A stretch of DNA of 64,000 nucleotides, from the NCBI RefSeq assembly GCF_019649055.1, contig NW_026570224.1, positions 1,178,001-1,242,000 of the forward strand. Reading direction: 5' to 3'. The notes below the pieces were generated by a model. The model saw nothing but the letters and a program-made list of their open reading frames with translations. It was not told the origin of the DNA and ran no database searches. Origin of the DNA: Paramacrobiotus metropolitanus. Lineage: Eukaryota; Tardigrada; Eutardigrada; Parachela; Macrobiotidae. Below, one piece after another: positions 5,586 through 47,549 of the stretch. Both the position numbers and the translations under genes were made by a program. Numbering within the stretch: position 1 is the first letter of the stretch; each line of letters begins with the position of its first letter.

Positions 5586-5602
5586 AATCATATTTGGGTC
5601 AG
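4625..5602 (+). repeat. 978-bp tandem duplication, copy 1
   Basis: The segment from the middle of the membrane-protein gene to 17 bp past its stop is repeated at 5611-6588 (offset 986 bp). The translations are identical, and I saw no nucleotide difference by eye. Confidence 0.9.
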
Positions 5603-5610
5603 GAAAGCTT

Positions 5611-23200: not shown

Positions 23201-26098
23201 GCCTTCGCTTTCGCTACATTTAGCTGTCGCAAATTCTTGACCGAATCCAATCTGAAACTGAATCGAATCCGTGGCGAGGTGCCACTGGTTAGTCAGTTCA
23301 ATATCGGAAAGGATTTCGGCATTATGGTATATTGGATGCGGTTGAAATTTGATGTGCAAGAAACTCAGGCACTTTTCAAGGTAAGCGGTTTTTTCAGGGC
23401 TGTTACGTTTGGCGTTTGAAAATTGCCCCAAATTTTTGCCAATATGTAGGCTCGACAGAAAGCGTTGTCGTATGTCGAGAGTAAGGCGAACGGATTACCC
23501 GATCCCGATCAGCTTTGGCTGCAGGAACAATCTTCACTGGCTAATTTGCTGCACATTGAAGTGAATAACTGTCGCAGCGTGAAGGCCTCAACCGGTTCCT
23601 CACCTCCAAACCCGTGTGTGCTGTACCAGTTTTATAATGGAAAAACGACTTACACACCGACCATCATTTCCAGCGAGAATCCCCGGTTTGAGCACCGTGC
23701 CACGTTTCGTGTTACCGAGGATGAAGATCTGCGACATTATCTTATGCACAAAGTATTACAGTAATATTATAGAACTGCTTATTACTGTAGAGTATTATTA
23801 GTTAATGTAGCAGTATTTTGTTGTTTTTTTTATGCCAAAATATGGACATGCAAAGAAGATTTCATCCCTGAAAACATGATTTAAACATCGTCACGCAGAT
23901 GCAGACAGTATTAGCGTAATGTGCTTGCAGAAACTGGATTTCTACGTAACCGATACAAAGGATTATAATGACGATCATTTCCTGGGCTATTGCCAGATCA
24001 GTTTGTCGGAATTAACGGAGCATCCCATACTGGACCGCGAATTGCAGCTTTTCGCTCAAAATGAACATCCCAACGGTACTATTACGGTGTCGTTATATTG
24101 GGAACGACCATATGGAAAACACCAAGACAGCAACGGTTATTCTGCAGCTCATGTGCCTAACCTTTCCGCCCGGGTTAATCGAGTCAGTCTCACCCCCAGA
24201 GGCAGTTTGGTTAGCGTGACACACAACGCAAAGTTGTTAAAGGTGGACAAGCCGAACGAGCCGCATACGACTAGTCCATCCCGTCATCCTACCATCGACA
24301 AAAGTGGTATGCCGGCTCAGAAAACTGAAGAACCACATCCTATTCCGCGAAAGAGTATCCGAATTGACATGCAAGCTAATGCCGCAATGCAGGCGGACTC
24401 ACGAAAGGGAAATGATTACTTTTCGCCACCATCATCGTCCAATCATCGCACTGTCAATCATATTAGTAGCGGCTTTGAGCAAACTAGGGTCACATTGTGG
24501 AAAACGGAAATGGACATGCAGACAAAGCGGTGAGTCGTGATTACAGAATGTTATTAAGGAGGTGTTATGAGGAAGAAATATTTTGGTTAGTAACGTGGTC
24601 AGTGTCTTCTGTCCGCGGATCATTCGCCCTAATTTACAATTCTGAATTTGGTTTTTTTGCGGGCTGCTTTTTAATCTCTGAGCAATGTGACAGTTAAATG
24701 TTAGTAGTTATTTATGACTGAGGTCCATGTTCTTTCTCAGTAACTTCTCTGTATCTGTTAATATTAAACTTGTAGAAAAACGAATCCGGTCGTTCTCAGC
24801 GTGGAAATTCGGTTGACAGTATTTCCGAACCCCCAACTAACCGCAATGGCGGATCAGCCAGAAAGACATCATCGAACAACCCGATTCCACAACGCAGGGA
24901 TAACCACTCAGAGGAATCCCGCACGGCACTGCCGCACTCCGATGTCACTCAAAAATCGAAAGACGAAATAAATCGAAATAATGCCAGCCAACCTACGTCT
25001 GCCCGAAATCTGGAGGCTCCTCGCCGCCCACCGCGAAGGATACGGGATACGCCTCGTTCGGAAGGCGCACTTTCTAGTCGCGGAAATATAATAGGTTCGC
25101 CTACGGAAGGCAGCGGTGATGCCACAGCACTGATGAGCCCTGATCACGTTCAGACTGTTCGAGCGGAACTGCACTCAGTGCCAAATGGCGATCTCACCCG
25201 AAAACCTTCCAATGCTTCGAACGTCCGGCAAGCACAGATGGGAACGAGTCCAAGGAATATCCCCGAAGATAGCGTTGTGATTATTGTACATTCGTTGTAT
25301 TTCATACCGGGAGCCTCTGTCCTCAGTGATGATAGGCCTGGGGAAGTATTTGTAGTGATTCAGTTTTTATCCGTGGAATACGAGTCTCCTCTGGCTGTGA
25401 TCAAGCCGAACTTGCCTAACAAGGATCTGACCTTTGAATTTCAGAAAGGTACTGCATCCCGATAGACTTCGGTTTCTCATTTGTGTGATTATTTATAACA
25501 GAAGTGTTGCGTATATCATTTTGTCATTTCAAAAGTAGAATATAACTTGAAATTACGCGTAAAGAGGGGGATTATTTCGAAGAGATAGAAACATTCGGTA
25601 CTGCGACCACCGGCCCGGCCTCATAGTTTTCCTCATGCACCTTTGATGCGCATGTGTTGTCATTACATTGTACTAAGCAATCTTTACCTGTTTTTTGACG
25701 TAAACCTCGTTACGATTTTAGTTTTCCCTATGAATTCCAAGACCCATTCCGAGGAACGTAGACTGGTGTTTGATATGCTTAACTCCTCTCCATCCGGACG
25801 TATTCAGTTTAGTGTATACTTGCAGTTAGATGACGAGGATTCGGATTCTGAGTTGATCGGTGTTGCCGCTCTGAGTCTAAACAGGCTATTAATAAAAGAG
25901 CAAGATGCAATCGAGGCCGAACTGAAGTGTGGGTTTATTATGCGCTTTGTACGATAATTTACTTTTTATGCATTAATTTTCTGGTGTTTTACAGTAATAA
26001 ATCCAGCAGATCGAGTGACCGTTGGATATGCTAAAGTTACCGTCCATGCCGTTCAAGTGCTGCTTGATATTCGACAGGAGTATAGACAGTCGGTGTGA
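20237..26098 (+). CDS. RPGRIP1L: RPGRIP1-like ciliary transition-zone protein
   Basis: Sixteen exons: 20237-20342, 20468-20612, 20752-20875, 21126-21293, 21398-21565, 21634-21780, 21845-21913, 21977-22207, 22329-22592, 22658-23089, 23153-23380, 23450-23752, 23931-24488, 24776-25448, 25722-25928 and 25995-26098 (1308 aa). About 480 residues of coiled coil come first, including VTKLSRDDLENQH, which aligns with the start of human RPGRIP1L. Then come LRDIAEGSMVYNLEED with GDNLLQLHF, a first C2 domain (about 523-690), a second C2 domain (about 715-860, with FYVTDTKDYNDDHFLGYC), a low-complexity linker and a final C2-like RPGR-interaction domain (from SVVIIVHSLY). RPGRIP1L (MKS5/NPHP8) scaffolds the transition zone of cilia. 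Two junctions are uncertain. Exon 7 must end before an in-frame TAA at 21917, needing a weak GTCTAA donor. Exon 13 keeps phase only with a weak donor at 24489, while a strong donor at 24530 is out of phase. Confidence 0.9.
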
Positions 26099-26994: not shown

Positions 26995-29900
26995 TCAAGC
27001 ACACCTTTTTGTCCCTTTGGAAGATACATCACTAAGCTGTTCGGAATTGAGGCAAAGATCGATGTGTTGGTTCAGCTGAACGAAATCTGGATCTGTCTGA
27101 ACCGTCTGTGCACAATTCGGACACTCAATAGATATTGCCGGCGCCAACGTGTTTTGATCGACTCCTGGCGAAATCACACTGCACTCGTTAACTTCTTCGT
27201 CCAATTGCATTATGGGGGATTCAATCTCTGTATGAGCACCGTCAGTGTCGTGAACTGGACTGCTTTCGTCGATTTGTTTTGCAGGTACCAAAAACTGCGA
27301 AATGCTCTTTTGTTTAAATTTATCATCAGCCGCAGCAACATCCTGTAACTGGGATACTCTCACGCCTGGACAAACACACCACGCGTAATTAGCACTAAGG
27401 CAGAAATTACTGTAAAGCGGAGCATTCTGTCGTCATTCGGCATTTCGTCACATATTCGGCAATCTTCTCACCCATTAACCGTAAGCGCAGTTTCCCATTT
27501 GCGTTCCGGATTTCCGTTTCCAGCAGTTTCTTAGCAATCGGGTAAATTTCATCCGCATGTCCGATCAGACGAGGCACAGAATTAGCGCGAGTATAGGTTT
27601 CAAATGTGATTAACTTGAGCTTAATGGTTACGCATCTTCCCTGTATAAGACATGCCGACTGCAGAATCTGCAGGCTAATTTTTCACGCCAATATTTTGCA
27701 TAATAACGTGAGCAACGGCTTACGCATATGTTTTTCTCTTCCATGGATTCTCCCAAATCTTCCGTAAGCTCTTCCAGTTTCTTAAACAGATCTTCTGGTT
27801 TCCACAGTTCTCGGAATGTTCTAAAAAAGCGATAAAAGTAAAAAATATGCCTAAATCTGAAGGGAAAGTTCTGGCAAAAACTGAGTTCCGAATTTAACAA
27901 AAGAATCATAAAACAACACAATCTGCACAACTGTCAACATCACAAAATAGTTGTGCGAGACCTGGAGTAAACGCCCAGATACAACGATCCACGTACGGTA
28001 AATTGTAAACGCAAACAATTAACTCACACTTTACTGGCGCCAGTCACACAGGCTGCGATTATGAAAACCAACAGTCTGAACCAAGTGAAAATTACCTTTC
28101 CGTGCTGATGCTCTTACGCTCATCATCGTTATCCAAGACAGTAGACCCTATCCCCAGTGACACCCGCAAGAAATGCTCCAGGGATAAATCAGAAAACACC
28201 AACGCCTGTGTAAATAAGTGATTGATTTCACACAGTGCTAAGCTGTTTCCACTGACAGCGTCCTTAATTCCCCATTGTTATGCATGAAAGACTCACCAGA
28301 ATGTCTCCCTTCGTATTCAAATCACCGCATGTTGTTACACCTAGTGCAGTTAAAATCTCCTCCGTTGCCGCACCGATACCTGGTACCTAAATCATATTCA
28401 AAATCCGTAAAAAGAAATAACAAAAGGAAACAGACTATGATCAATGCGCAACCTTTACGGATGACGCATTTGCAGTGTACACAGTACACCCACATTAGTT
28501 TGCTCAAATGAAATCAGTCAACGAAAAACAACGGGGTTGCCTACCTTTCGCACTGGGAGATCACGAATGAACTCCAAAATCACATCTCTAACTGAAGGCA
28601 GTTGATATTGACCGTTGGGTTTGTTCTTATCCGTACAGATCTTGGCAAGCCTACAACCATATGAACCTACTGCAGCACCATGCAAACTAATACTTATACC
28701 GTATTCGTACACGAAATTTATTACTGCATATTACTGAATTTATACGTATCAGAACTCTTAAAAATTCTGTGTTATTTTTAGTGACTAGGACCATATTAGT
28801 AAACTATCAGTCAATTAATACAAAACGAGACTGAGAAAACTGTGATATGAAAAATCAATAACAAAGGTAAAAAGCAAATGATTATGAATTCGTTGATTTT
28901 TGCAGGAAAACCATACATCGTGTTACAAGAAATCCCAGCGCTGCAGGTTAAGGATGTTTTCTGAAAGATTCTTATTCGCAGCTCATGTACAGCACCATCC
29001 GCATCCACCCCGGCAACAATCTTCTCAGCTGGACGCCCACACCGGGGACAGCATGATTCTATTTCCGCCCCACTGTCTGGATGAATCGGGTCAATCGATG
29101 CTTTCTTTTCAGTTAAATACAAGCAGTCGCACTGCCACACCGTGCGCTGAGCTTCCGAAAACTGACTTCGCCTGTGGAGATGATCCGTAATGTCAAGGTA
29201 CGCTTCGTCCAGCGATGCCGAAACGAAGTTGGGATCGTATTCCGCGAACAGCTGTCGTACGATTCGACCCACATCTTGATATTTCACGAAATTCGGTGGA
29301 ATGATTATGAGATCAGGGCAGAGCTTTTTGGCTAGAAATCCCGGTTGAGCGGCGCGCACGCCGTATCGCCTGGCCACGTAATTTGACGTAGATAACATTG
29401 CTAAAAAGCATAAAAATTATCGCTACGAAAGCGAAAAATTAAAACAAATCTGGAAAAAGACACAGGCGTTAAATTTATTTACTTAACTATTTTTCCTGAC
29501 TGAGCCGCCACTAATCGCACATCTCAAATTTTCCATTTACATATGAATTAAAACAATTCCCATTTAATTTTTCTTCTGTTGAGCAAGAAACTGATTTAAA
29601 TGCCAAAACTTGTACCAACCATTTGGCATTAATTAAAAGCAACAAGGATTCATCGCGTCGAGGGTTTAAATCAAACCAGCACATCAAAACCATAATAAAA
29701 AATCAAATTAAAAAAATTTTTTTACCAAATCCACTAACCGTTCTATCGTAGTAGACTAGTAGTTGTCCAGTGCGTCAGAAAAAATACTATTACAAAAAAA
29801 AGATGAGATTAACTTACACGAACATCCAACAGCTACAGGCTTGGTTTTAAGCTGAGGATTATCGCGCATTTCCACCGCCGCAAAGAACATATCCATGTCC

Positions 29901-30361
29901 ACATGCACGATTGTGCGGCTCAAATCCCGCTCGTCTTCCAATTCTTCAATAAGCCTCTTGGCCTACAACACCAAATCTAAGTAAATATTTGGGCTAAACA
30001 CTGACGTAACGACAAACGTTTTAAATCTTGCACGTATGATTGCCCGTATTGTGGCATTCGTCATCTAGAGAATAACAACTTAATAAAACAGTGTACATAT
30101 GCTGATATGCAGTTCTAAAATGCATACCTTCCGTTCCGCTTCTGCGAAGTCCTCCGCTGACGCTTTCGCCAAAACGTCCTTTTTCGAGGCAATCCTTTCC
30201 TCTATCAACTTATGTTTAACCTTCTTATTTTCGTGAAATAGAGAACCTTTGGAGGCCTCCGTAAGGATTCGACTAATATCGTCTTTGGAAAGTCCATCCA
30301 TCTGCGAAAGACCCGCTTTGTTGTCGTTTAAACGGAACATGCCCCCGCTGAAATCGGCCAT
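26995..30361 (-). CDS. POLK: DNA polymerase kappa (Y-family translesion polymerase)
   Basis: Nine exons in phase: 30361-30128, 29962-29818, 29400-28917, 28650-28545, 28386-28297, 28205-28096, 27820-27724, 27658-27472 and 27365-26995, giving 607 aa. Landmarks in order: LNDNKAG of the N-clasp, [12 protein letters not shown] with metal ligands Asp100/Asp102, [15 protein letters not shown], the second catalytic motif SLDEAYLD (Asp191-Glu192), [10 protein letters not shown], the helix-hairpin-helix [16 protein letters not shown] and DERKSIS, then the little finger through RCVTIKLK and LRLRLMGVRVSQ. The C-terminus has one C2HC ubiquitin-binding zinc finger: Cys566, Cys569, His585 and Cys589. The enzyme extends DNA past bulky lesions in the nucleus. 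It is shorter than the vertebrate protein, which carries two such fingers. An insert in the palm at about 217-247 carries Cys217, 219, 243, 244 and 247. The neighbouring plus-strand frames are antisense shadows. Confidence 0.96.
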
Positions 30362-31908
30362 TGTATATCGGGAACTGGGATCGTCAACCCCAGTTCACCG
30401 TGCGGAAGCCACAAAATACTCCAAGAGAATTCTCAACCTTTAGAACTAATAAAACAGAACTGAATTATGTTTTCGGTGTCTGTATAATAGTACCGAACCA
30501 ATAATTATTTCAGTAACACCATTAATTTAGTTGTTGGCGAAAGCGGGAACTGAGCAGTGAGCACAGCTGCACGGCATGTAATAGGCTAATAGCGACACAT
30601 GGCAATGAAACACTGTCGCCCGACTGCGGTGGTGCTCGCGGTATTCGGTACCAAGAAAGTTGTAAGTACTTGAGTCTACTTCCAAAACGGAAAAATTGTT
30701 GAAAGTTATACTTTCACAGCTGATGTGATAAACTACTTATTAATAATATTAGTTAACGTTCAAAAACAACTTACTAAAAAGAATTTCACAATACATGTGT
30801 TATGTAAGTATCAGTAGAACACAGGCAAGCTTCCTTCTCGTGGTCGTTCCCTTTTAGCGTATGTGTTTGAAAACGTGCCCTTATACAGCTGCTCACTTGC
30901 CTTCCATAGAATTTCAAGTTGATTATTAATCGTAAGTACTGATACAACGAAAGATACACTATTTGCACTTGTTGCCATCTGCATGAACTGCAGTTTCAGC
31001 ATAATCAAAGCAGAATAATCACGTCGACGAATGTACTATTGCTGCCAGTGTGAGGTTGTCAAAATGGACCGAAATATTATAAATTTTCGAAAATACTGTA
31101 CACGTATTGTTGTAGTGGTATCTGACTGCAAGAGTTCCGCGTATAACCGCAACATTACTGCATAAATCGCAGTATTGCATAGGTATATGACAACTATACC
31201 AGCTACTTTCAGAAAAGGTCATGATTATCGAAGGTTATGACATCGATGTCGAAGTCGTAACTGCGCAGCTGCGCGCATGCATTTCACGTTTCTAAGAATC
31301 AAGCAATCTTTTCTTGTTAGTAAATTAAAAAATAATTAAGACCACCTGTGCGTCCACCATATACGGCTGTTAGTTAGTTGCATTACGCGCACGAAAGCGA
31401 ACGGGTGGATTATTGCATGTTGGAGTCGGTTTCCCTTTTCTCATATCCTTTTAATCTGGTTAATGAACATCGATCCATGCAAGCGTATGCCGGCCGGCAG
31501 TAAATCTACCTGGGTTTCTTTCTTCGGAGCATTTCTATTTCCATCAATCACCTATTCTATGATTAATCACAAGATGATACAGTGAAAAGCAGAACGAATA
31601 ATATAACATCCTATTCCACCAGATCAATACGTCGTCTATAACAGAGTAGAATCGTATTTATCGTCATCATTATTTTTGAATTTGTTCATCAAGATATCCA
31701 TCCGTTCTGTGATTAGTAAATTACTGAGATTCGGTCCACCGTATGCTAAGATATCACGTGATGGGCATTACAGTAATGAATTTGGGGAGCCATTTTGCCA
31801 CGATTATCTATCATGTAAAATTAAGACTGTTTCGGAAAACCACGACTGTTACTGTACGCATCCATAAATATTAATAATCAGGATCACAACTAATCATGCT
31901 TATTGACG
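30362..31908. other. Intergenic region between POLK and the guanylate cyclase pair
   Basis: Divergent upstream regions. No exon could be supported; short minus-strand frames at 30786-31222 lack features or splice context. Confidence 0.4.
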
Positions 31909-34900
31909 ATGATCCTTCTAATTGGCTTTTGGTTTGTAATCGCTAATTTGGCCATATCTTCGCTTGCGCATTTGAATATTGTGTCGGTGACACTCGGTGG
32001 ATTTCCTTCCTATCGATATGGATTAACCGCTCCCACTTACGACATTGCCTTGGAGGATGCGATGACCACGTATCCCGACATTCTTCGAAATGTTTCGTCG
32101 TATTTGTTTCTATAGCATAGGACGGACGAAAAACTGCGAAGAGGAAGAAGACTTAATTCATAATCAAATAGGATTTATTTATCAAAATCTAACTGCAATG
32201 CGTGGCACTCCCACGATAATACAAACTTCCGGTAGGTTAAACCATGAAACACCTAACTTTGACGAGCAGTGACTTTCAAATTTCCACTGCTGAATTTATT
32301 AGTCATAGAGTCGGTGTTATAATTACACATTAAAATAAAAAGAATACCTAAAGTGTTGTTCGAAAAAAAATCGAAAAAACACGTGATTTTGGATGTTTTA
32401 TCATATGCATAATTTACGCGTAGGTTGCGACTCCGTTGCTTTCACGTTAGGAGATTTTGCCCGTGAGCTGGATCTGCCCCTCGTCATAAGGTAAGTAAGC
32501 TATAAGTTGTCAGTGCTGTTCGCCAGCAATAGTTTCGCGATTTCGCCAACAATTTCCTATGCGTTTTAAAAACTATCTCTTGGCGAAAGGTGATGAGACG
32601 CGGGTCGAAAAGACTGAATAATATGAGAAAATCATGCAAATGCCGTATTCTCCAAGTTAATTGGATTTTCTGTAGGGAACAAATGTTACAAAAGTCATTA
32701 CCGGGAACAGCATTTTTAACTTTTGCAGTTTAATAATAATCGGGATATCAGTTATTTATTGTTAAGATACATAGGTTGTAAATGGCACAAGGAATTAGGG
32801 TGCATTTTGTTTTCAGCACTGCCGGCAATCCTGAACTTTTCAGCGATATTCGTTTCCCAACAGTGATTGGCTTTGGCCCGGCCGATCATTCCATGCTGGC
32901 TCATGCTGCATTGCGATTTCTACAGAATTATAACTGGACCACTGTAACATTATTGTGCGCCAGGCCTAGGGACAGTGAGAAATTATCCCCATTTGATAAA
33001 TCTACCTGCAACACGTTGGAAAAGCACCTGAAAGCCCATCCGCTTGACTATGATGTCCACATTCTAGGATTTAACCCGGAAAACACTACCAGCTATCTCT
33101 CTATTCTCCAGAACATAAGACGACAATCTAGAGGTAAGCAAGCAAATCAATCTTGACACGCCTGTATATTTATATATGTACGAATGGTAAGAAAAACCTT
33201 GTTGTGCTAATATTTGCTTTTTACAGATTATATATATTGGATGAATGCACGAAATTCTCATATGTTTTTATTTTTATAGTTGTCTTTCTATCGTGTGCGA
33301 TTTCAATTCTGCGACCAATTATGGTAACTTTTTGCCCAATCATGTGTCACATTACATGCTCGCACTATTAATTCAAACCACGTACAGATATCCGCTATTA
33401 AAACAAATTCCATATATGTTTATAAAAATGCTGTGTTTTCGTTGCAGTCGGCAGCGCACGCGCTGGGAATGACCAAAGGAGACTACGTATGTGCATAATA
33501 CAGTAAATCGAATGCTATGTAAATATTGTCGCTGATTATTAGTGGTTTTTGCGTGTGATTTAAGTTTCAGCCATCATAAGAATAATATATTAAGGGATAG
33601 GTGGATGCCTGATTTTGAGGATGGTGATCATAAGATTTCAAAAAAAAACGTTTCTAAATTACATAATTTCTTTACGCACGCTATCCAGTGCACAGAGCCG
33701 TTAGGTAAACGTATGACCAAACTGCAATATTACTGAGAAAATGATCTGTAAAGTCAAAGTAATTGCTTTCGACTGCACGAAACCAAAACATCCATTTTTT
33801 TATAAAATTTTTGTTATCGGGCTCTTCAGATTTATCCGTTCTAAGTTAACAATCCGTAAACCGGCCAAGGAGTTTAGAACCCAAGAAACGCGGAGGCGAA
33901 GCCGAGGCTGTTTCTTGTAAGGTATAAGGTAATATAAGGTACTATAAGTAAGTAAACTATAAGTTGTCAGTGCTGTTCGACAGCAATAGTTTCGCGATTT
34001 CGCCAACAATTTCCTATGCGTTTTAAAAACAATCTCTTGGCGAAAGGTGATGAGACGCAGGTCGAAAACACTGAATAATATGAGAAAATCATGCAAATGC
34101 CGTATTCTCCAAGTTAATTGGATTTTCTGTAGGGAACAAATGTTACAAAAGTCATTACCGGGAACAGCATTTTTTAACTTTTGCAGTTTAATAATAATCG
34201 GGATACCAGTTATTTATTGTTAAGATACATAGGTTGTAAATGGCACAAGGAATTAGGGTGCATTTTGTTTTCAGCACTGCCGGCAATCCTGAACTTTTCA
34301 GCGATATTCGTTTCCCAACAGTGATTGGCTTTGGCCCGGCCGATCATTCCATGCTGGCTCATGCTGCATTGCGATTTCTACAGAATTATAACTGGACCAC
34401 TGTAACATTATTGTGCGCCAGGCCTAGGGACAGTGAGAAATTATCCCCATTTGATAAATCTACCTGCAACACGTTGGAAAAGCACCTGAAAGCCCATCCG
34501 CTTGACTATGATGTCCACATTCTAGGATTTAACCCGGAAAACACTACCAGCTATCTCTCTATTCTCCAGAACATAAGACGACAATCTAGAGGTAAGCAAG
34601 CAAATCAATCTTGTCACGCCTGTATATCTATATATGTACGAATGGTAAGAAAAACCTTGTTGTGCTAATATTTGCTTTTTACAGATTATATATATTGGAT
34701 GAATGCACGAAATTCTCATATGTTTTTATTTTTATAGTTGTCTTTCTATCGTGTGCGATTTCAATTCTGCGACCAATTATGGTAACTTTTTACCCAATCA
34801 TATGTCACATTACATGCTCGCACTATTAATTCAAACCACGTACAGATATCCGCTATTAAAACAAATTCCATATATGTTTATAAAAATGCTGTGTTTTCGT

Positions 34901-37900
34901 TGCAGTCGGCAGCGCACGCGCTGGGAATGACCAAAGGAGACTACGTATGTGCATAATACAGTAAATCGAATGCTATGTAAATATTGTCGCTGATTATTAG
35001 TGGTTTTTGCGTGTGATTTAAGCCAGCCACATCATAAGAATAATATATTAAGGGATAGGTGGATGCCTGATTTTGAGGATGGTGATCATAAGATTTCAAA
35101 AAAACGTTTCTAAATTACATAATTTCTTTACGCACGTGTTGATCATGGGCAAACTCATTTTCGTAGGTATTTCTTTCGCCACAGAGCGTCGCATATCAGA
35201 GACAAACCAAACGGCCGTGGTCGGCTAGTGATACCAATGATGATGTACGACTTGAAAAGTAGAAAACTATAATTATCTGGATACATGATTAATTCTGTTG
35301 ACATTATATGTAACTGCAGAATCATTGCAATGCCCTTTTGTTTGTAAAGGAGATATTATTGGCTTATCGATCGCTAATAATTTACAACATCATGGAGCCG
35401 GACTGGCAGAAATCGGGAGTTCTCATGGACCGCATTGCTTTCGCTGCTGCTAGCAATTATGAGAAAACTCGAGTCAACCTGACCGAAGTGAGCAAGGCAA
35501 AAAAACCAATTTATACGTATCGTATAAATACATAATTATCAGTGGTGCAGTAACATTCTTTTGGCATAATATAAGTATTGTTATAGGAACATTATTACAG
35601 GACATTTTACTGTACTGCTTAACAAGACAATCAAATATAGCTGCGGATGCTAATGCTACCGGCTTTGTGTAATGATTAAATTTTACGTCCTTGGTATACA
35701 AGTATATTTACACCTTTAACTCAGCTTGTTCGAACTGGTATTTTTCGTAAAATGTTAATAAAATGTTAATTAGGGGCATATTGTTTTAGATTAACATGTT
35801 AAATCTTGCGGCGTACGAAGGCTTCATGGCCAGTGCCCAGATGCTTAATGAGTACCTGAAAACTGAGAAACGCCAAAACTTTTCGGGTGCATCATTTGCG
35901 CAGATGTTTGCTGAAAGGAGATTCTCTTTTGTAACGGAAGAGGTTCGACTTAGCGACGCTGTTGCCCGAAACCCAGATATAATTTTTCGACGCTTTTCCT
36001 ACCGTACTAAAGATTTTGAGGTAATTTTGTCCTCCGTACATATGCATAAAAAGTTTTGCTATTCGGTTTGATGATTGATAATATTATAATGTAGAAAACA
36101 TGGCGATTCATTGCCTTTTTGGATACACTGGAGGCAGTCTCCGATCTAGCCGAAAGCTGGCCAGGAGATAGTCCACCGCCAAACCGTCCTGCCTGTGGTT
36201 ATATTGATGAATCATGTGATGTTCTGAAAGGTCAGCCTTTAGTAAAGTAAAAAAATTGCCGTGTAACTTGTAATGCATATCGTGGGTATACAGTGTCTTA
36301 CGCAGTTATCATTAATTACTCCTGCATGATGTAAGCAGTACATCATAGTCTCACAGATGCCACTTTGTTTAGGGTGCAAGCTGTATTGCGTAATCTGATT
36401 AATATACATATAGAAGTATATATAGATATACTGATAACTGGCAATGTGTTATCCAACGATCGCTGTAGTAGTCAACCGCCATAATTAATAAGAGGGAGCT
36501 TTAACTCTGCACCCGGGATGCGGTCGTTAGGAGCGTCTTCGCCAACTTAGAATGAAATGTCAAAGGATATAAACTCAAATTAAATATAATTCAATTAATT
36601 GCTTTAATTTTCGTTGTCTCAGCTGAATTATGACTGTCCTAATAGTTTCACAAATCCTGGTAAGAAGCTAGGAGAGGTGTCCTGTAAATGATCCCTATAC
36701 TTTGCGATATTATGCAGTTACATACTATACGTATTTTGCTGTTAACTATGAGAAAAATTGTTTCAGGCCAGAGATTTATCCTTTCGGTGGTTATTCCCGT
36801 GGTGCTAGCTACATTATTTCTGAGCAGCGTGGGTGTGTTTTTCGTAATTCGGTACGTTCGGAGTGGGTCAAGAACCTGAACAGCCAGCAGATTTAATGGG
36901 AGGTTATATATATCACATCGTGCGCTTCTGTTTGATTTTAGGCGCATCAATAGTTTGGGGCAAAAAAACCTCGCCTGTCGGTGGCTGTTGGATGCAGCCT
37001 CCTTTGTCCTCTATGACCTTTCCCACGCCCTCCGCATGGGTTTAGTAGAATCACTGACAAACCCAACAGGAGTAACTCTGAAGAAGCGTATTACACATGG
37101 ATATGGTGAAAAATGATGGTGCATGGCAAAGACATCGTTTTTGTTGATAATATAATGGAACATCCTAACAAGCTCCTTGACCATTTCACCTGCGTGAGCG
37201 ATATTGCTTCTGCAGTAAGTGAGCCACTGTTCGCCCAGCTAAATTTCCTCCGTTCTAAAGTACTGTATCATTTTGTTGCATACATAAAATATAAAATTTT
37301 ACGATAACAGATAAATTATTAATTGTGTGGTCTGTTGGAGTTCCTTATAAATTTCCCTTTGCAACAACCGTAGATAGCCACCCTTTCCCATCGCAATGTT
37401 GGCTACTTTTACGGGATTCTCATGAACGGATTTTCGATATCATCAGTCTGGCGGTATGGAAGCAATGGATCGCTCCGTCACTTTCTGGACGCTGATTTGT
37501 ATCCAGTTGATTCTACTGTTAAATTTTCCTTATGCTGGGACATATTATCGGTGATCAGTGCTTGGTGCTTGCTATTAAGTGAATAAGTGCAGTGCCGTAA
37601 ACTTACATGGAAAGACCCGCATGTTTACATGTAGTCATGTACTACTAATCGTACAATAACTATTTATGTACTGTACCAGTATTATAATATCTGCTAATTC
37701 CGTGTAATTCAGTAATTCAACCCGGCAAAAGTTTTTGTATGAATGTGGTAACATATCGATATTTACAGGGATTGCATCATCTTCAAAGCTGTCCAAGAAT
37801 AAAATGCCACGGGAGCTTATCCAGTTTAACCTGCATGGTGGATGACCGACTGTCGCTTCAGTTAGTGGGAATAGGTTCCCGTGATTTACGGAGAATTGTT

Positions 37901-40539
37901 ATCAGTGCTCTGCTATCAAAACATGGGAAGTCACATGACCATGTAGCACCCCAGTCGGTATTTGATTTATGGCTGGCTCCAGAACTTTTACTTAATCCGC
38001 TGGCGGTCTCCACCGAGTCTGGTGATATGTTCAGCCTAGCTATTGTGATTGGTGAAATTTGGAGCAACCAGTATCCCCTCAAAGTGCCCCTCCGAAAACC
38101 TCTAGCGCTGCAAGGTTAGCAGTTTGAATTTTAAGTAGCTACTAGCTAGTTTGTTTATATAGATTGAGCATACTTGAATTACGGAAGTCATGAAATAAAT
38201 TTTAACCGAGATAAATGGACGTTAAGTTTTTCTTGTGTGAGTGATATATTGTGACAATTATTATTGACAGGACGTTTGCAATATAAACTGCTTTATGTAC
38301 CTTCGCACCGCTCTGTTATTTTGATACGATGGCACAGCTAACCACTATATATAAGTTCGTTTTATCACATTATACTTGAGTAATTTGTTTCATTAAATGA
38401 TTACTGTAAGCGAAAGACTGCGCACATTATGATATGCAGTATATGCGGTATTCACGTGTTACATCTGCGTTTTAATTAACCTATCCAAAGATTCGCAATC
38501 TGGTGTTTCCGTTCCTTGATATACAGTATGATGCGTTAATTACAATTAGAAGCCTTATGGAACCTGATTCCGACACCTGGAGGCAGCTGGCCTTCACGAA
38601 TATCTGTCAAGCGACCGGAAGTGCCTCCTCAACTGCATTCCGCCCTTTCTGCCTGCTTGAATACCGATCCGAATAAACGGCCTACTCTGAAAGATTTCAT
38701 AACGTTGATGATGGACCGCTATCCACGCGAGAACATAATGGACAATCTGTTTCGCCGGCTGGAATCATATGCGACGGAATTAGAAATTCGCATGCAGGAG
38801 CGTACAGCTGAACTACAGGAAGAAAAAGCCAAAACTGATGAAATCCTCTCCTTGCTAATGCCAAGGTAATTGATAAAAGCTCCTGAATACCGTGCTAGTA
38901 CGAAGTGTTTGTAAGCCTACAAAAATTTTATTATTAATAATATACATCGAGTAAGTCACACTGATAAGTCTGATTTTGAGCGTGCATTATATGACTAGAA
39001 TTATGTTATAGCTCAGTTGCCAAACTGCTTCGGAATCATCAAATAGTGCATCCAGAAATGTTTGAGTCGGCGACCGTGCTCTTCAGTAAAATTCCCAACT
39101 TTCTGATTATATGCAGCACATGGCCCGGCATTCACATTATTCAAATTTTGACAACCTTGTATCGAATTCTGGATGACCTTATTTATGCGCACGAAGTTTA
39201 CAAAGTCGAGGCTATTACTGATAGCTACATGGTTAGTAAGCCGCAATTCCGCTAGATTAAACTAGGTATTTTATAAACCCTGCATCTCAGAAAATCCTTT
39301 ATCTTTAAGGTCGCCAGTGGAATACCACAGCGAATAGGTACGCGCCATGCACTGGAAGCGTCACTTTTGGCAATCAGCTTTCTGGATGGTTGTAATGCAG
39401 AGCTTGGCAGTTCAGCCGAAATACCACAAAAACTGCAATTACAAATTGGCATACATTCCGGTATGCGCGTACAGTCTATAGCTATAAAATACATTAGATT
39501 CACATATTCTTTGCAGTACTAATAATGAATCGAGATTTAGTTGTAATACTGTACGCACTTACTCGTAATAACAATTATTTTATAGCAGAAATATTAAGAA
39601 TTTAAGGTCGACTACCGCGCGTCATATGAGCGATGCCATGCTTGATGTCTGGAAGCTTACAACTACGCAGTACTCTTGTTAAGCAAAATTCTTGTATTTT
39701 AGGACCCTGTGCGGCTGGTATTATTGGACACCGGCTCCCGAGATATTGTCTGTACGGAACGTTTTGAAAGCATAATAAATTTGTTGAAGCTATTTAAGTG
39801 TTGTGTGTATATACGCGTATGATCTAGAGTTCGCTGTAATTTTAAGACTATATAGCAGCTACATACTAGCAGGTGCTTCGAATTTTGCGTTCAGGAAGAA
39901 ACTGTGAAATTCACAGGTTTGGTGATACCGTGAACACTGCAAGCCGCATGCAGACTTACGGCGAAGGTCAGCTGGAATTTCTGCGATACACGTACTTTGT
40001 ATATGAGAGTTTCTCCGATATACCAGTATTATACGATTTTAGTAAACAAAATACACATTGGGCAACAAACAAAAGACCTACTGGATGACTACCCGTGCAG
40101 TAATTTTGACATCGTGGAAAGGGGAATTCTTAATATTAAGGTAAAACAGCAGCTTACAATCGTACTACAGTACAATAATATTGCTGTATTGATGTCTTAC
40201 GTACATATTGCATTATATGGCATATTGCATCATTTTGTAGATAAGTTGTAGAAAAACACACGATATTACACAATAAAATTTTTATGGATAATTTGATGCA
40301 AATGTTTGTACCGATATATAGGTGGCCTTTTAGGGTTTACTTTGGTAGCTGCGCATCTGTGATGTAAATATAATGCGCAAATTAATTAAACATACGTAAT
40401 AAGTTAGCGCCCGAAGAATTTCCATTTAGCAAGAGCGATTATGATTCAGAAATGTTTTGCACTGATAAATTTTTGCCTTTCTTAACAGGGAAAAGGAGAA
40501 GTGGATACATTCTGGCTGATACCAACCATAAAAATTTAA
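31909..40539 (+). CDS. Receptor-type guanylate cyclase A, likely catalytically impaired; frame broken in two places
   Basis: Twenty exons: 31909-32231, 32424-32490, 32817-33133, 33280-33323, 33448-33486, 35167-35244, 35350-35487, 35790-36020, 36095-36230, 36767-36851, 36942-37214, 37374-37550, 37769-38114, 38550-38865, 39012-39231, 39310-39460, 39703-39751, 39917-39966, 40043-40140 and 40489-40539. Product parts: signal peptide; ANF-receptor ligand-binding domain (FGPADH, LGMTKGDY); transmembrane segment (VVIPVVLATLFL); kinase-homology domain (HRNVGYFYG, WLAPELL); coiled coil ending EILSLLMPR; and a cyclase domain. The usual metal-binding FSDIVGF reads FSKIPNF, so the first Asp is Lys. The second metal Asp (ITDSYM), substrate Glu (YKVEA) and catalytic Asn/Arg (NTASRM) remain. 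Frame breaks occur in exon 1 near 32100 and at an A-run at 37109-37113. With both ignored the protein would be about 1057 aa, normal for the family. It is an old pseudogene, a signalling pseudo-cyclase or a gene with sequencing errors. Introns at 36231-36766 and 38115-38549 hold nothing recognisable. Confidence 0.8.
32486..33680 (+). repeat. Tandem duplication inside cyclase A, copy 1
   Basis: This copy starts at the exon 2 donor and contains exons 3-5 of cyclase A (32817-33133, 33280-33323, 33448-33486). It is repeated at about 33944-35136. I count roughly a dozen differences, all in noncoding parts as far as I can see; exon translations are identical. Confidence 0.9.
33944..35136 (+). repeat. 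Tandem duplication inside cyclase A, copy 2
   Basis: Exons 3'-5' lie at 34275-34591, 34738-34781 and 34906-34944 with the same splice sites and lengths (317, 44, 39). Exon 5 ends in phase 0 while exon 3' needs two bases from the preceding exon, so an mRNA containing both copies would be out of frame. Only one copy can be used in a given in-frame transcript. The 260-bp spacer 33681-33943 has no coding signal and ends in short ataaggta-type repeats. Confidence 0.9.
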
Positions 40540-41944
40540 AAATCTTTGGCCATTGTTAAAGAGTCGTATTTAATTGGAACCTGAGTTCCTTTTTTATACA
40601 ATTAACGCTCGCAGTTATTGATGGAGCTTGATAAAATTTAAGCGCGTATATATGGCACAAAAATGATTTTATTAACCGATTCATTATGACTTACCTTGCA
40701 GTCTTCAGATAACAGCAAATAAAGAATGTCCTATACATGAATATACTCGTCAAATTGGTACTCGTAATTATTAGTAAACAACTATTTGTCTGTGGACACA
40801 GAAGTGTCTTCAAAACTCGTTATATTTTACTGACTGAATTACCGCTAAGTGGTTTTCATTTAAATTTGAACAAAAAATGTATCAAAAGCGACTATCTTAT
40901 TTTTTGTTCGGGGGCAGGTCAAAAGCTCCTGGAAACTGTCGTTTCAGCAGAGAATCCTATCATTAAATTTTACAGTATGAATACCGGTCATTACACATTC
41001 ATCCAACACCTACTAACGCAAATATAGCCTTATACAAAAAAGGTGGGCAATGGACTGATTAAAGCTACCTATCCGTACTTCCGGTCCAAACAACGAAGAG
41101 ACGGTTGCATGTTCTGCTACTCATTACTCATACTTCCTCGTGTTTTGAATATGGAATAAAATAAAAAAAGGAAAATTCGAAACACGATCAGCCTTTATAC
41201 GAGGTAATTACGGAATTTTTGGTGTCGGTCAGCCGGGCCTCAACTGGCGTACATGGTGCACTTTTTGTTGCCAGAAATAATATTATCAGTAAAGCTATAC
41301 TCCGACACTGGATACACAAGCCGCCTTGAAGTTCAATTAACAAAAAGTAAATAATTGATCTACAGACTTTTCTGCGTACGCAATCGTGGAGAGCAGCTAT
41401 AAAAATAATACTTACTATTGTGATAATTATACGGCCAATTAAAACAAGGAAGCAGCAGCAGACAGGCATTTCACAAAAATTTGAGGGCGGTACTCGACCA
41501 TCAAATTAGAATGCGGTATGTGCTGTTTAGTTTAACATACTGGAGGTCTGCAGGAGTTGTGGCACCGTACATTGGGCTGTAACAGTGCAATACATTCGTA
41601 CGATCTTTTGATTTCCGTAGTGGTACCCGACGTACAGCACGAAGTATTATAGTCGTCATCCCGCAGTGTGGTGTTTTGTAAAAAAATAGCATTCCAAAAT
41701 TTCTGGAGCTTTTTAACGGGATTTTGTGCGCGAATAATCAAAAATCATCTACAGCACTGTACAGCACTTGCAATGGTGTCCTGAAATCCTATGTCTGCTA
41801 TAAGGTCAACGCAAACCGCAGATCTTTAGATTATCAAAACTTCTGAACAACAGCGATGTCTTAGCGTATAATTACACCCTCTTGTGTATTAATATATTGC
41901 ACGGTTAAACTGTTTGCATTTGGAACCATTATATCAGTACCAGT
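40540..41944. other. Intergenic spacer between the two cyclase genes
   Basis: It presumably holds the 3' end of cyclase A and the promoter of cyclase B. Minus-strand frames at 41188-41469 and 41501-41741 have no splice context or recognised motif. Confidence 0.4.
40718..40723 (+). promoter_or_regulatory. Poly(A) signal AATAAA
   Basis: A canonical hexamer 179 bp after the cyclase A stop; a further one lies at 41155-41160. Confidence 0.45.
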
Positions 41945-44900
41945 ATGATTTTGTTCATCCCATTTATTGCTGTTTGTGCTTCTTTGTCCACCATTGCAAT
42001 GGGGAATGGCTTAATCCACGTTGTCAGCATCGTTTTAGGCGGAAATCCTGCTTACGAGTACAAACTGTCAGTGCCGACATATAAACTTGCATTTCAAGCA
42101 GCACACAACATCCTTGGAAACTTCAGTTTTAAAGAAATCAACATTTTCGAACGAGGAATCAGTAAAAGTTGTGACGACGAAGAGAATCTGGCATTCTCCA
42201 AAATCACACAGATCTATCAACTTATATATCAACTAGATGGCCCGATCGTGATGCAGACCACCGGCAAGTAGCGTAGCGTATTGTAGAACTAGAAATACTG
42301 TTAATTAGCGCTTTTCGAAAAATTGCTGCTCTCAATAGCATTCTTGTGGCATCTAGATTCAATCCTACCTATAAGAATTAATTTTTAAAACAAGATGCTG
42401 GAAACTAGCAAAAAGCTGGTATGATCACTGCACTAACAGATCTCCGTTTGCTTATCTTTTTTAACCATTTAACCGAATTATGATCTAACATTCCTAAACA
42501 GTTAAAATATGCTTACAATTAGTTCTGTTTAATTAATTCAACCTTTCTTTAGGATGCACAAATGTGGCACTGCTGTTAGGCAATTTTGCGAGAGAGTTGA
42601 ATATACCAATGCTGATAAGGTAAAGTGAAAGTTTCTTCGTCGACAGTAGTTAATGTTTCTGGCACCTTATACCCATAAAATTGAGGTAATCTATCGTTGC
42701 ATAATATTGACACCAGGCCATCAGGTGACGGTAGTCGTGCTCCAATGATGTGCAGTTTACTTATCGTTAATATAACGAACAATTGCAACACTGCTTTGTA
42801 TACTTGTACGGAATTAGCACGTCTCGCTTTCGCTGTAGTACAAGGTTTGATTTGCATCATAAAATTTACTTCGCACACGCACCGAAATCGCTGTCTCACA
42901 TCCGACAGCTATAACATGATGTTCTGTAAACGACGCTAATTTCTATAATATCAAGTTATTATCAACACAACTAATTAGTCCTGTATTTTGATAGCACAGC
43001 AGGTGATCCAGCTTTTCTGGATAAAAAACGTTTCCCCAACACACTGAATTTTGGTCCAGCTGATCATCGATCGCTGGCGGACGGAGCCAAACAGTTTTTC
43101 CGCACATATCAGTGGTCAACTATAATGCTCCTGTGTGGGACGCAGTACACTAGTGCTAAACCTTTTGACGTGTCCACATGTTCAACATTATACAACGTGT
43201 TGACCACAGGAAACGAAGTAGAACGCTTTGTTGTGTATCGCGCTTCGTTTAATCCCGAAATCCAAACCGATTACACATACCATTTATCGCAGTCCAAATC
43301 TCGAGCAAGAAGTACGGTTTTTCTAAACGCTTGCGTTACTTAATATTTCCAGCTATACGAGAAATATGATAGCTAAAATTTTGTGCGGCGGGTGTTACAC
43401 ATAATAATATTTTCGAATATATGTGGCCTGTCTGTCTACACAATTTCATTAGATGTATATCATGTATTAATGATCATGATTATATATGTAGATCGATTTA
43501 TATAAAATCGGATACTCGTACATCTGGCGCAACGAGTTTTCATGTCTTTCAGTCATTGTTCTGTGTCTGGATGCTGCATTCGTACGGCAAGCGATGGTAA
43601 TTCGTGTTATTGCTTATAATTATTAGATCGCCCTACGCAATTAAATGAAGAGCCATTAATTTACGGATATTTGCAAACTAATTCTGCTCTACAACTTACG
43701 AAGTCAGCATATGACCAGCTTCAGTCATATAATTAAAATAAATTGTCGCTGCGAGCGAATAATAAGGATGACCTTCTCATTTTCTTTGATTCACTTTATT
43801 TACTTTATTTTTTCTAAGAAAGTCCCTAACACCTATTTTGCTACTAAGGCGCGGCAATAACTATTTATAAACCAGACAGTATAAGATTTCGAAACTTGTC
43901 AAATTACGAGTGTGTGCAGGTAGAAAATTGAAACTGCTTGCAGAATTTTTGCTACCCAAGCAAAAAAGCCTTTGAAACAATTTACATGTTCTAGATGGAA
44001 GCAGCATCCCTAAACATGACAAATGGGGACTACGTGAGTTGATCCAGATTAAGTGATTAATTAAGACTGCATTATGCGGTTCTGTACCCAACTGCATATG
44101 CTGCATTTAACATAAATGTTCTAATAGGTTTTTCTGTCGCCTCAAAGCAACGTTTATAAAAACCAACTGGACCGAATCTGGAATAAGAACGATTCTAATA
44201 ACATGGTAGGGAAGCAAATTTACGTGAACACCAGATTAAATTGAGATTCGTGTAACTTGCAGATGCTAATTCAAGCTTTTAAGACAATGATTGTGTATGC
44301 AAATAAAGGACCAAATTGGGATGTCATTTCCGATTTGGTACAAGGAATACAAGCGAGTTCAGTCACCGATAGCACCAGAAGCAGTAACCAAACTGGGATC
44401 CCTTCAGTGACGGTAGGGTATCAGGAACGAAAAGGGGTTTGCAGCTACGTTTTAAGTGAAACAGAATTCTTTTGTCTATAAGCAATATAAGCTAAAAACC
44501 AAGACATATAATGTCATATACTGCATATTGTGCACTGTTGCACGTGCAGCATGTTCTGATAAGAGTAAATAAGTATACGAAAACTAGTTTCTTTTCCAGC
44601 GGAAGATTCGCTCATACGCTTGCCATTACATTGATTACATTGATTTTGCAGGTGAATAGTTTGAACGTCGCTGCCTATGAGGCTTTTATGGTGATAACAT
44701 CCATGTTGCAAGAAAACAGTACTCTAACCCAACATTATCTTTCGGTCCGGGAAAGGTCGCCAGAGCTAACACTGCAATTCGTCCAGCAATTCTGGAGTCG
44801 GCATTTCTATCTAGACTCTGGAATCGTGCATTTGAATGCCTATGGTTATAGGCGAACGGACACAGTATTTCTACGTTTCAATGCCATTTCAAAACGTTTC

Positions 44901-46545
44901 GAGGTGAAATCATGGTTTTGCAAAAACATGTTAAATGGGTCACTCGTAGTAGTACTCTGTATTAGGTCCGCCGTAGGCATATGTGTTATTTACAATATTT
45001 ATGAACGTTAAACTAACAAAGTTATTATTCCGTTCAGAAAGAGTACGCCAAAATGTTTTCTTGTAATAATATATATTACTTTGTTTTAATGAATTATGTT
45101 CCTTGTATTAACAATATCATCGGAACGAAAATACAATCGGTTAACATCATGAAGTAGATTGCTTTTGTAGGAAGGATGGTTTTTTAATGTGTCCCAATTC
45201 ACATTGGCGGCTATACCGAACATTTCCCAAGCGTGGCCAAATAGTAGCGGTCCACCACCTAATCGTCCAAAATGTGGATACGGCGACGACGAGTGCTATG
45301 ACGATTCCGGTATGATCTTAAATCGTTATTATTATGTTAATTTTAATATGAAACAGTTTTCAAGGACAAAGAACAATTCTTATTGGAAGCTTTTTTGCTG
45401 TTGCTGGAATCGTGCTAACGGTTACAGTGATTATCTTTGCCATCAGGTATGATTGCATTAGAAATGTTGTTACATTGCAAACTTGTCCATGAGAATAAAA
45501 TGGTATATTGCGCCTTTACATTTCACCAAAAAAGAATTTGTATAGGTTTTTGTTACCTTTAATTTATTTAGATGGTCAAATTTTCTCGCCATGCAGAATA
45601 ACGCCTGGTGGCTCTTAAATCCTGCTGCACTTTTTCCACTTCAAGCCCAGAGTCACGTTTCTAACAGAACATCAACAAAGGTCACGGATGCGCAGAGCAT
45701 TGTAATACCGTGGATAAAGAAATACTCCAACTCCAGATTTCATAAAGTGCGATTGTACGAGAATTCATTGGTTTTCCTTGAACTATTGGTGCACAAGTCA
45801 ACTTCTAAACCACACATTCCAAATAGTCGGAAAAGCATCGCCCTAATGAATAATGTACGCCACGACATTTTCAGGGATACTCACTGGCTCCACAATAGCG
45901 TCCATTTTAACTTTTTCTGTATTAAATCAGATAAAAGGTTTATTGCACGTAAATATTGGCACCTTTATCGGAACTACAATATGGGATAATGCTGTGGCAG
46001 TGGTGTGGGCGTGTGAGTCAAGAGGTCCGCTACGGTTGCTTCTGGACGCCGAAGACATACATTTTGACATGCCCATGAAATTGTCTTTGTGTTGGGACGT
46101 ACTTGGGGTAAGGAGGAACTATTATTGTGCATGCACTTTTGCCCCGATACTTGAATTTGTTTATTCGTCGGATCACCTTTATTATTGTTCCTGGTTTGTA
46201 AGTTTATCACAGATAGGTACCCTTCTGAAAACAGCTATAAGGAAAATTAAAAATTAATACAGATACTGTTGCAAATTCGAATAAACCTGGTGCGGATGAA
46301 AAAAAGATAAGGAATTAAACGATTACGATACGAAAACGGTCGTATTCGGATGCTACTAAGGATGCGTTATCTGTTCGATTGTGCAGGGTATAGCATATTT
46401 ACATCGTTCCAATGTCCCATTCCATGGAAATTTATCCAGCTTTACCTGTTGGGTTGATCGAAGATTAACCGTTAAACTTCTTTCAATTGGCACAAGACGC
46501 TTAATGGCTGACAAAGTTATAAGTAAAAGTACCACTAACAGGTAG
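41945..46545 (+). CDS. Receptor guanylate cyclase paralog B, truncated before the cyclase domain
   Basis: Thirteen exons: 41945-42263, 42553-42619, 42995-43311, 43553-43596, 43995-44033, 44128-44205, 44263-44412, 44652-44903, 45171-45309, 45365-45446, 45572-45854, 45931-46107 and 46387-46545. Exons 2-6 have exactly the same lengths as in cyclase A, proving common descent by tandem duplication. Intron 1 uses a GC donor (GCAAGT at 42264). The product has a signal peptide, an ANF-type ligand-binding domain (FGPADH, LNMTNGDY), a transmembrane segment (IVLTVTVIIFAI) and the first part of the kinase-homology domain (NIGTFIG, IAYLHRSN, HGNLSSF). It stops at TAG 46543-46545 after about 701 aa, before the WAPE motif, coiled coil and cyclase domain. 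The TAG overlaps a GTAGAC that could be a donor, but its phase does not fit the next recognisable exon. It could act as a cyclase-less receptor or be a decaying gene. Confidence 0.75.
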
Positions 46546-46773
46546 ACTGGTGTTATGTATTCGTCCGAAGTTATGCCTGACTTTGTCTTCGCCGGAATAA
46601 ATACAATTCCCATTGCACTGCCCTGAGTGCCTGTACGACGCACTTTAATCACTCTTAGAAAATCTGTGCAGCCCTGACTCCAGCATTGTGTATCTCGGCC
46701 TTTTGCACGTTTTCATAATCATGATAAACCGCGAAATGTTTTGCGGGAATAAGTAACTGATGATTTCCCATAG

Positions 46774-47549
46774 GACCTTGCGCGGCGGGTATTGTTGGAC
46801 ATCGTCTTCCTCGATATTGTGTGTAAGCCCAAAACTGTTACTTATTGCGACAAAGTATCGTTGGGATAAATAAAATGCTTAAATGAATTTTTTATTTCAT
46901 TCTATTTCATTTTTTAAAGTAGAAGGAAATTCCTTTTCGCTTAATACTCGTAGTCTCGTACTTTGGTTTTCTTACGGCAGTCTTGTTGCATTTAATGGCA
47001 ACATATACAGATAATTGACAAGATTTTCAAATCGATCACCCTTCAACCATAAAATCGATCGTGACCTGTTGGCAGCACTGTTGTTGAACAAAGTAACTAA
47101 CGGCTTTATCGCCCGTCGCAGTTATACCTTTGTTTTATAGAGCAATTGAAAAGTGTTTTTTTGCAGATTTGGGGACACAGTCAATACAGCCAGTCGAATG
47201 CAGGCGTATGGAGAAGGTACGCACTATGCACCTACAGTGCATGGTATAATTAAAATGCATTACTAAATTCTTCGCTCATGGCACACGTGTTGATAATAAG
47301 TGCTTGTCACCCATTATTCTAGGCGGAAAGATTCACATTTCGGAACAAACAAAAAATTTGTTGGCTAAATATCCTGATTTTTTAATTCAAGAAAGGGGAT
47401 TTCTAGAAATTAGGGTGAGTTATAAGGTTCATCTACGACATTACTGTAGCATAATTATACGAAGCTTTCCAAGTCTTTTTAATGCAGTTTTTGGCTTTCT
47501 ATTGCAGGGAAAGGGAAAAATCGTGACCTTTTGGTTGTCAGATGTCTAA
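46774..47549 (+). pseudogene. Orphan 3' cyclase exons of paralog B
   Basis: Four exons remain with intact splice sites and phases: 46774-46822 (GPCAAGIVGHRLPRYC), 47167-47216 (FGDTVNTASRMQ), 47323-47414 (KIHISEQTKNLL) and 47508-47549 (GKGKIVTFW, then TAA). They match the last four exons of cyclase A in order; the first two match in length. The exons for the WAPE part of the kinase-homology domain, the coiled coil and the first half of the cyclase domain (metal-binding Asp residues and substrate Glu) are missing between 46546 and 46773, where only stop-ridden sequence is seen. Confidence 0.75.

Follow-up and report, generated by a model that had tools for sequence, protein, structure and literature searches.

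The window, i.e., the whole stretch of 64,000 nucleotides that was analyzed, contains two neighboring genes, copies A and B, both for receptor guanylate cyclases of the hormone receptor type; they arose as a tandem pair long ago. The pair is flanked by one gene on each side, DNA polymerase kappa and proteasome subunit 6, and by its gene content the window resembles the DNA of an animal. Among the literature matches listed, none deals with this locus. The main features are:

28518-30394, minus strand: DNA polymerase kappa, directly upstream of copy A (PDB match with an E value of 4e-57 for the joined stretch)
31909-40539, plus strand: copy A, 20 exons (gene model)
41945-46541, plus strand: copy B, exons E1-E13 (gene model; Pfam ANF_receptor and PK_Tyr_Ser-Thr)
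46542-46773, plus strand: gap of 232 nt in copy B, in place of the rest of E13 and of E14-E16 of copy A
46774-47549, plus strand: copy B, orphan exons E17-E20 (gene model; Pfam Guanylate_cyc)

The tandem arrangement, which had been proposed in a sequence-only reading of this DNA, turned out to be real, and the lengths of E2-E6 (67, 317, 44, 39, and 78 nt) are identical in both copies. The same reading had claimed that the 3'-terminal exons are shared as well. This holds for the lengths of E17 (49 nt) and E18 (50 nt), but not for E19 (98 nt in A versus 92 nt in B) and E20 (51 nt versus 42 nt); E12 (177 nt) is a further exon of equal length. The introns of both gene models are GT-AG introns throughout, with the sole exception of intron 1 of copy B, a GC-AG intron with the donor GCAAGT at the end of B E1 (41945-42263). 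The 35 acceptor sites listed for the locus comprise 19 TAG, 13 CAG, and 3 AAG, which is possibly a hint to the phylum. Elsewhere in the window, a 455-residue open frame on the minus strand (8279-9643) resembles, by eye, the CXC-SET end of an Enhancer-of-zeste protein.

Copy A is composed of the following parts, all on the plus strand, with exons E3-E5 present twice:

31909-32231, plus strand: E1, signal peptide and start of the ectodomain (frame break, stop at 32113-32115)
32424-32490, plus strand: E2, 67 nt (gene model)
32486-33680, plus strand: first cassette copy, with E3a (32817-33133), E4a (33280-33323), and E5a (33448-33486)
33944-35136, plus strand: second cassette copy, with E3b (34275-34591), E4b (34738-34781), and E5b (34906-34944)
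35167-36230, plus strand: E6-E9, remaining ectodomain (gene model, Pfam)
36767-36851, plus strand: E10, membrane helix (hydrophobic stretch by eye)
36942-37214, plus strand: E11, juxtamembrane region and start of the kinase-homology domain (frame break, stop at 37114-37116)
37374-38114, plus strand: E12-E13, kinase-homology domain (Pfam PK_Tyr_Ser-Thr)
38550-38865, plus strand: E14, end of the kinase-homology domain and coiled coil (by eye)
39012-39231, plus strand: E15, metal half of the cyclase (residue comparison)
39310-39460, plus strand: E16, carrying Gln for the triphosphate Arg (codon at 39442; residue comparison)
39703-40539, plus strand: E17-E20, second half of the cyclase (Pfam and residue comparison)

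The ectodomain of A, queried from E3 to the 5' part of E11, matched the Pfam family ANF_receptor with an E value of 4.2e-16. The kinase-homology domain, located between membrane and cyclase, matched PK_Tyr_Ser-Thr (E 2e-10) with a query in which E11 was entered in two frames with an X between them. For E14-E20, the match to Guanylate_cyc (E 6.1e-51) covers positions 3-182 of the 183 positions of the profile and thus the whole class III cyclase domain. The best solved relatives of this cyclase are natriuretic peptide receptor A (NPR-A, E 1.3e-51) and guanylyl cyclase C (GC-C, E 2.1e-49).

The catalytic residues of A were compared at eight positions, a list of our own that was compiled from the passages on the roles of the catalytic residues in PMC2576301 and PMC3591389. 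At these positions, A has K, D, Q, E, C, N, R, and K. The sequence-only reading had noticed FSKIPNF at the site of the first metal Asp, and the alignment to FSDIVGF of NPR-A bears this out (Lys codon AAA at 39088). The second loss is that of the triphosphate Arg, which is replaced by Gln (CAA, 39442). The other six residues are retained, i.e., the second metal Asp (39220), the base Glu (39208), Cys (39747), Asn (39933), Arg (39945), and Lys (40138). Two of the three residues of the metal side are therefore lost, while all five residues expected of a base-giving subunit are present (base Glu and Cys, ribose Asn, transition-state Arg and Lys). A homodimer needs both metal Asps in every subunit, and neither copy has them: A has Lys and Asp, and B lacks the respective exon.

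The same two of the eight positions are lost in sGC beta-1. The chains 6jt0_B and 9oxn_B, which we take to be the human and the Manduca protein, have G, D, T, E, C, N, R, and K. If all positions are treated as equal, two lost positions of eight would match by chance in 1 of 28 cases by our own count, so that this agreement is of modest weight. In A, the distance between Gln and Cys (119, 140) is 21 residues and that between Lys and Asp (27, 71) is 44 residues, as in sGC alpha, for which the residue numbers given in a passage of PMC3591389 place Arg and Cys 21 and the two metal Asps 44 residues apart. Among 26 pattern matches in prokaryote contigs, one relative was found, a bacterial cyclase at 31% that was of no use for the comparison, and among 14 pattern matches in viral contigs there was no relative.

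The sequence-only reading had argued that class III cyclases need both Asps. According to passages in PMC2576301 and PMC3591389, this is correct for each active site, but not for each subunit. Base and metal residues reside on opposite protomers in the description given in part of PMC12264004, whereas a passage of PMC2576301 assigns the base Glu to the monomer that also carries the Asp; the base Glu is kept in A whichever assignment holds.

The conservation of the two cyclase halves was quantified at positions where NPR-A and GC-C have the same residue. Copy A keeps 21 of 43 such positions in E15 and 13 of 22 in E16; for E17-E20, the count is 35 of 46. The difference between E15 and E17-E20 has a Fisher p value of 0.009, in one test with one sequence and two reference receptors. 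No such contrast between the halves is seen for sGC beta-1 (30 of 43 in the E15 part and 29 of 46 in the E17-E20 part, p 0.65). With a stricter set of positions, which are also equal in sGC beta-1, A keeps 19 of 30 in E15, 9 of 11 in E16, and 25 of 29 in E17-E20. Further losses in E15 that are not shared by sGC beta-1 are the changes of LLNDLY to ILTTLY and of IGD to ITD; these extra losses fit a plain loss of function as well. The exchange of Asp for Lys requires at least two base changes and thus is not one base-call error. The location of the E15 changes in an open exon suggests that they date from a time when the protein was still produced.

Copy B has an unbroken frame of 701 residues in E1-E13, which comprises the ectodomain, the membrane helix, and half of the kinase-homology domain. 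It is closed by a TAG (46543-46545) in the kinase-homology exon E13 that overlaps an apparent donor site, and the 2,100 nt and 12 introns ahead of this stop contain no lesion. The ectodomain matched ANF_receptor (E 1.5e-19) as well as natriuretic receptor A (E 7.5e-12) and the clearance receptor (E 8.2e-5). The match to PK_Tyr_Ser-Thr (E 1.3e-7) covers only a part of the domain, positions 45-155 of 258 of the profile. The exons E14-E16, which were missing from B in the sequence-only reading as well, were detected neither in the gap nor elsewhere in the window by tblastn of A E12-E20 and blastn of the gap. Intact copies of these exons at another place in the locus, which the sequence-only reading had named as a finding that would refute it, thus did not turn up. 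Outside of the exons of both genes, A E12-E20 matched only 23368-23496 (E 0.001) and 42718-42915 (E 0.19), and the gap yielded nothing past short chance-level matches with A and the rest of the window. A 118-residue open frame on the minus strand (46356-46712) spans B E13 and the gap and has no Pfam match at an E value of 0.1.

The orphan exons E17-E20 of B are open and mutually in frame, have intact splice sites, and keep Cys, Asn, and Arg; E19 ends at 47414, which keeps E19 and E20 in frame. They retain 35 of the 46 positions shared by NPR-A and GC-C, the same number as A. Their match to Guanylate_cyc (E 5.1e-24) is confined to positions 109-182 of 183 of the profile and thus does not extend over a whole cyclase, and splicing of E13 to E17 would break the frame. 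In the assembled sequence, B has neither the coiled coil nor the metal half of the cyclase. The undamaged orphan exons make this loss look recent. Any protein made from B would be a receptor that binds ligand and has a membrane helix and half of the kinase-homology domain, but no cyclase. The two copies hence depart from the enzyme by different routes, as had been claimed, A by loss of residues and B by missing exons.

The reading frame of A is broken twice, in E1 and in E11. These breaks, the doubled E3-E5, and the exchange of the triphosphate Arg had not been mentioned in the sequence-only reading. B E1 aligns to both sides of the break in A E1 (tblastn). Introns that could rescue the frame were sought with site scores whose training set, the 34 model introns, also served for the comparison. 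The best candidate in E11 scored -2.7, versus 7.5 for the weakest of the 34 model introns, and was rejected. In E1, a candidate of 46 nt (32070-32115) reached a total of 7.5, equal to the weakest model intron. Its acceptor is normal (6.6), but its donor scored 0.9 versus 4.7 for the lowest model donor, its length lies below the 55 nt of the shortest model intron, and it would excise about 15 residues that are present in B. Therefore, rescue by this intron is unlikely.

The two cassette copies are 98.4% identical (self-blastn). There is no difference in the 400 nt of exons E3-E5, while 17 of 792 aligned bases outside the exons differ, 7 of the 17 in one block, in addition to 4 gap columns. The probability of finding no substitution in the cassette exons by chance is 0.017 without the 7-nt block and 0.001 with the block. 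The cassette looks like two alleles of a gene under selection, or like a very young duplication. A role of the doubled exons as a splicing switch that generates diversity was considered and rejected: the exons are identical and would yield the same protein either way, and joining of both sets would break the frame, because E3-E5 sum up to 400 nt (1 mod 3). The 263 nt between the cassette copies (33681-33943) have no second copy in the window and end, by eye, with steps resembling ataag/gtaag.

The age of the pair was estimated from the divergence of A and B. The amino acid identity is 39.4% for the ectodomain (E2-E9), 36.1% for the membrane and juxtamembrane regions, 41.3% for the kinase-homology domain (E12 to the end of E13 in B), and 71.4% for the second cyclase half. 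In these four regions, pS ranges from 0.74 to 0.86 and pN from 0.18 to 0.47. The synonymous sites are thus at or near saturation, which shows that the pair is old and at the same time rules out a useful dN/dS analysis; a finite value was obtained for one of the four regions only (0.21 for the kinase-homology domain, at a dS of 3.1) and is not reliable. The excess of silent change supports the view that both genes were maintained as proteins over most of this time.

For the dating of the lesions, 0.05-0.15 indels per substitution and neutrality since the lesions were assumed, and the cassette and the B gap were left out as events. Under these assumptions, a neutral divergence of 0.003-0.006 would account for the two lesions in A, and the absence of lesions gives upper bounds of 0.008-0.014 for B E1-E13 and of 0.057-0.087 for its orphan tail. 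The lesions thus look much younger than the A-B pair, if the genes have been neutral since. Recent decay or null alleles that are segregating may underlie the breaks in A and the gap in B, or else these may be errors of the assembly. We infer as the likely order of events that an old pair underwent a long translated phase, that A then lost its metal side, and that the recent breaks or errors came last.

A half-site and a dead cyclase are told apart by all catalytic positions and not by one Asp, and by this measure, copy A is better called a half-site than dead. The earlier statement that both genes have lost cyclase capability is adequate for B, as assembled, but too strong for A, which has a half-site like that of sGC beta-1. 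The reading that we prefer, and to which we would give about an even chance, is that A represents a half-site in an old tandem pair and served as a base-giving subunit, that B was recently stripped of its cyclase, and that the lesions are young. In this view, the past role of A, and possibly its present role where the allele is intact, would be that of the base-giving partner in a one-site heterodimer. The other subunit would contribute the triphosphate Arg along with both metal Asps, and A alone would be silent. Accordingly worded as a prediction, A should fail as a homodimer but could function with a metal-giving partner. Against the heterodimer stands that A as assembled is not translatable through E11, and through E1 only via the weak 46-nt intron with its excision of residues present in B. 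A more far-reaching version, in which A is a dedicated base-giving subunit at the sGC beta-1 profile, its Lys in the metal site possibly locking the dead second site and tuning the live one, and B has only just been reduced to a receptor devoid of a cyclase, so that the pair displays two stages of a transition from enzyme to partner, appears unlikely to us.

The two frame breaks in A also keep in play the alternative of two decaying genes, which had been raised before, and the decay would be recent if the breaks are real. Both genes would then be young pseudogenes that were working receptors until recently, which we regard as somewhat unlikely. The gap in B, which removes the coiled coil and the metal half, is in line with such a decay, and the divergence of 0.003-0.006 for A is of the same order as the 1.3-2.1% between the cassettes outside of the exons (10 or 17 of 792). 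However, 22 of 43 conserved positions in E15 are changed, too many for a short time of decay, in an otherwise open exon, and these changes therefore probably occurred earlier, in a translated protein. Young pseudogenes are also difficult to reconcile with the lesion-free 2,100 nt and 12 introns of B and with cassette exons that are identical while the remainder differs. The latter pattern is one to expect if the copies are two alleles of a living gene, and not if the exons are redundant, and it favors another explanation, namely that the breaks, the doubled cassette, and the B gap stem from joined alleles or a local misassembly and that the genes are intact in the animal. The assembly is open to doubt because the window contains a second near-identical tandem repeat of about 1 kb, a head-to-tail repeat of about 988 nt at 4625-6598 (4625-5611/5611-6598, 99.8%) over the 3' part of an open frame, which is either a very young duplication or itself an assembly artefact. 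Nevertheless, the 263 nt without a second copy between the cassettes, the absence of any N in the window, and the two base changes behind the Lys at the metal site speak against an artefact, which we likewise consider possible, but on the unlikely side. Stretches of two control genes, 304 residues of proteasome subunit 6 and 203 of polymerase kappa, were joined by eye from open frames, and they match solved structures over nearly their full length, except for residues 93-131 of the kappa query. Together with B E1-E13, they comprise about 1,200 codons without a frame break, compared to about 1,060 codons in A; at such similar codon numbers, they are a weak control and weak evidence that the breaks in A are real.

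For B, the product that its unbroken 701-residue frame would give leads to the idea of a functional receptor without a cyclase, which acts as a ligand sink or a dominant partner like the natriuretic peptide clearance receptor. The 13 exons of this frame, the stop that overlaps an apparent donor, and the ectodomain matches to natriuretic receptor A and the clearance receptor agree with it. Nevertheless, the orphan exons E17-E20 are undecayed, so that there was too little time to show selection for the short form, and half a kinase-homology domain is retained, whereas the clearance receptor has a very short tail. Taken together, we regard a function of B as a cyclase-less receptor as improbable.

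Should A function together with a partner, the set of residues seen in sGC beta-1 would have been reached by a receptor lineage, and the pair would then be a test case for how a receptor changes from an enzyme into a partner or sink. Should the lesions prove to be assembly errors, the locus would be a caution against calling pseudo-enzymes from single genomes.

A close known parallel in residues is sGC beta-1, in which, as in A, the first metal Asp and the triphosphate Arg are missing and the other six residues are present. Despite these two losses it supplies the other half of the single sGC site, and A has the same profile. In contrast to A, sGC beta-1 is no membrane receptor, has Gly and Thr instead of Lys and Gln, and has a better conserved metal half (30 of 43 versus 21 of 43 positions). 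The half-site pattern is known in principle from receptor cyclases of C. elegans. Those that lack GTP- or Mg-binding residues have been proposed to be obligate heterodimers, e.g., ODR-1/DAF-11, in passages of PMC8045692 and PMC5225109, which also report experimental support for a heterodimer of the intracellular domains. Formal proof in native cells is awaited and homodimers are possible according to a passage in PMC8045692. Similar to A, these are animal receptors, and each monomer is described as giving essential residues to a single site (parts of PMC5225109 and PMC8045692). Unlike them, A carries frame breaks as assembled. A heterodimer with one catalytic and one degenerate site is NeoR/RGC1, a chytrid rhodopsin guanylyl cyclase, in which removal of a metal Asp from the base-giving subunit increased the activity about ninefold (excerpt of PMC12264004). 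In contrast to A, it is a fungal light receptor, its Asp loss was made in the laboratory, and it is NeoR that lacks the NxxxR motif.

Atrial natriuretic peptide receptor A (GC-A) and guanylyl cyclase C share with A the succession of ectodomain, membrane helix, kinase-homology domain, coiled coil, and cyclase, but the cyclase domains of mammalian receptors each hold all residues and act as homodimers (passage of PMC8045692). B, if made, would resemble the natriuretic peptide clearance receptor as a ligand-binding receptor without a cyclase; it differs in its retained half of the kinase-homology domain and in a loss that looks recent.
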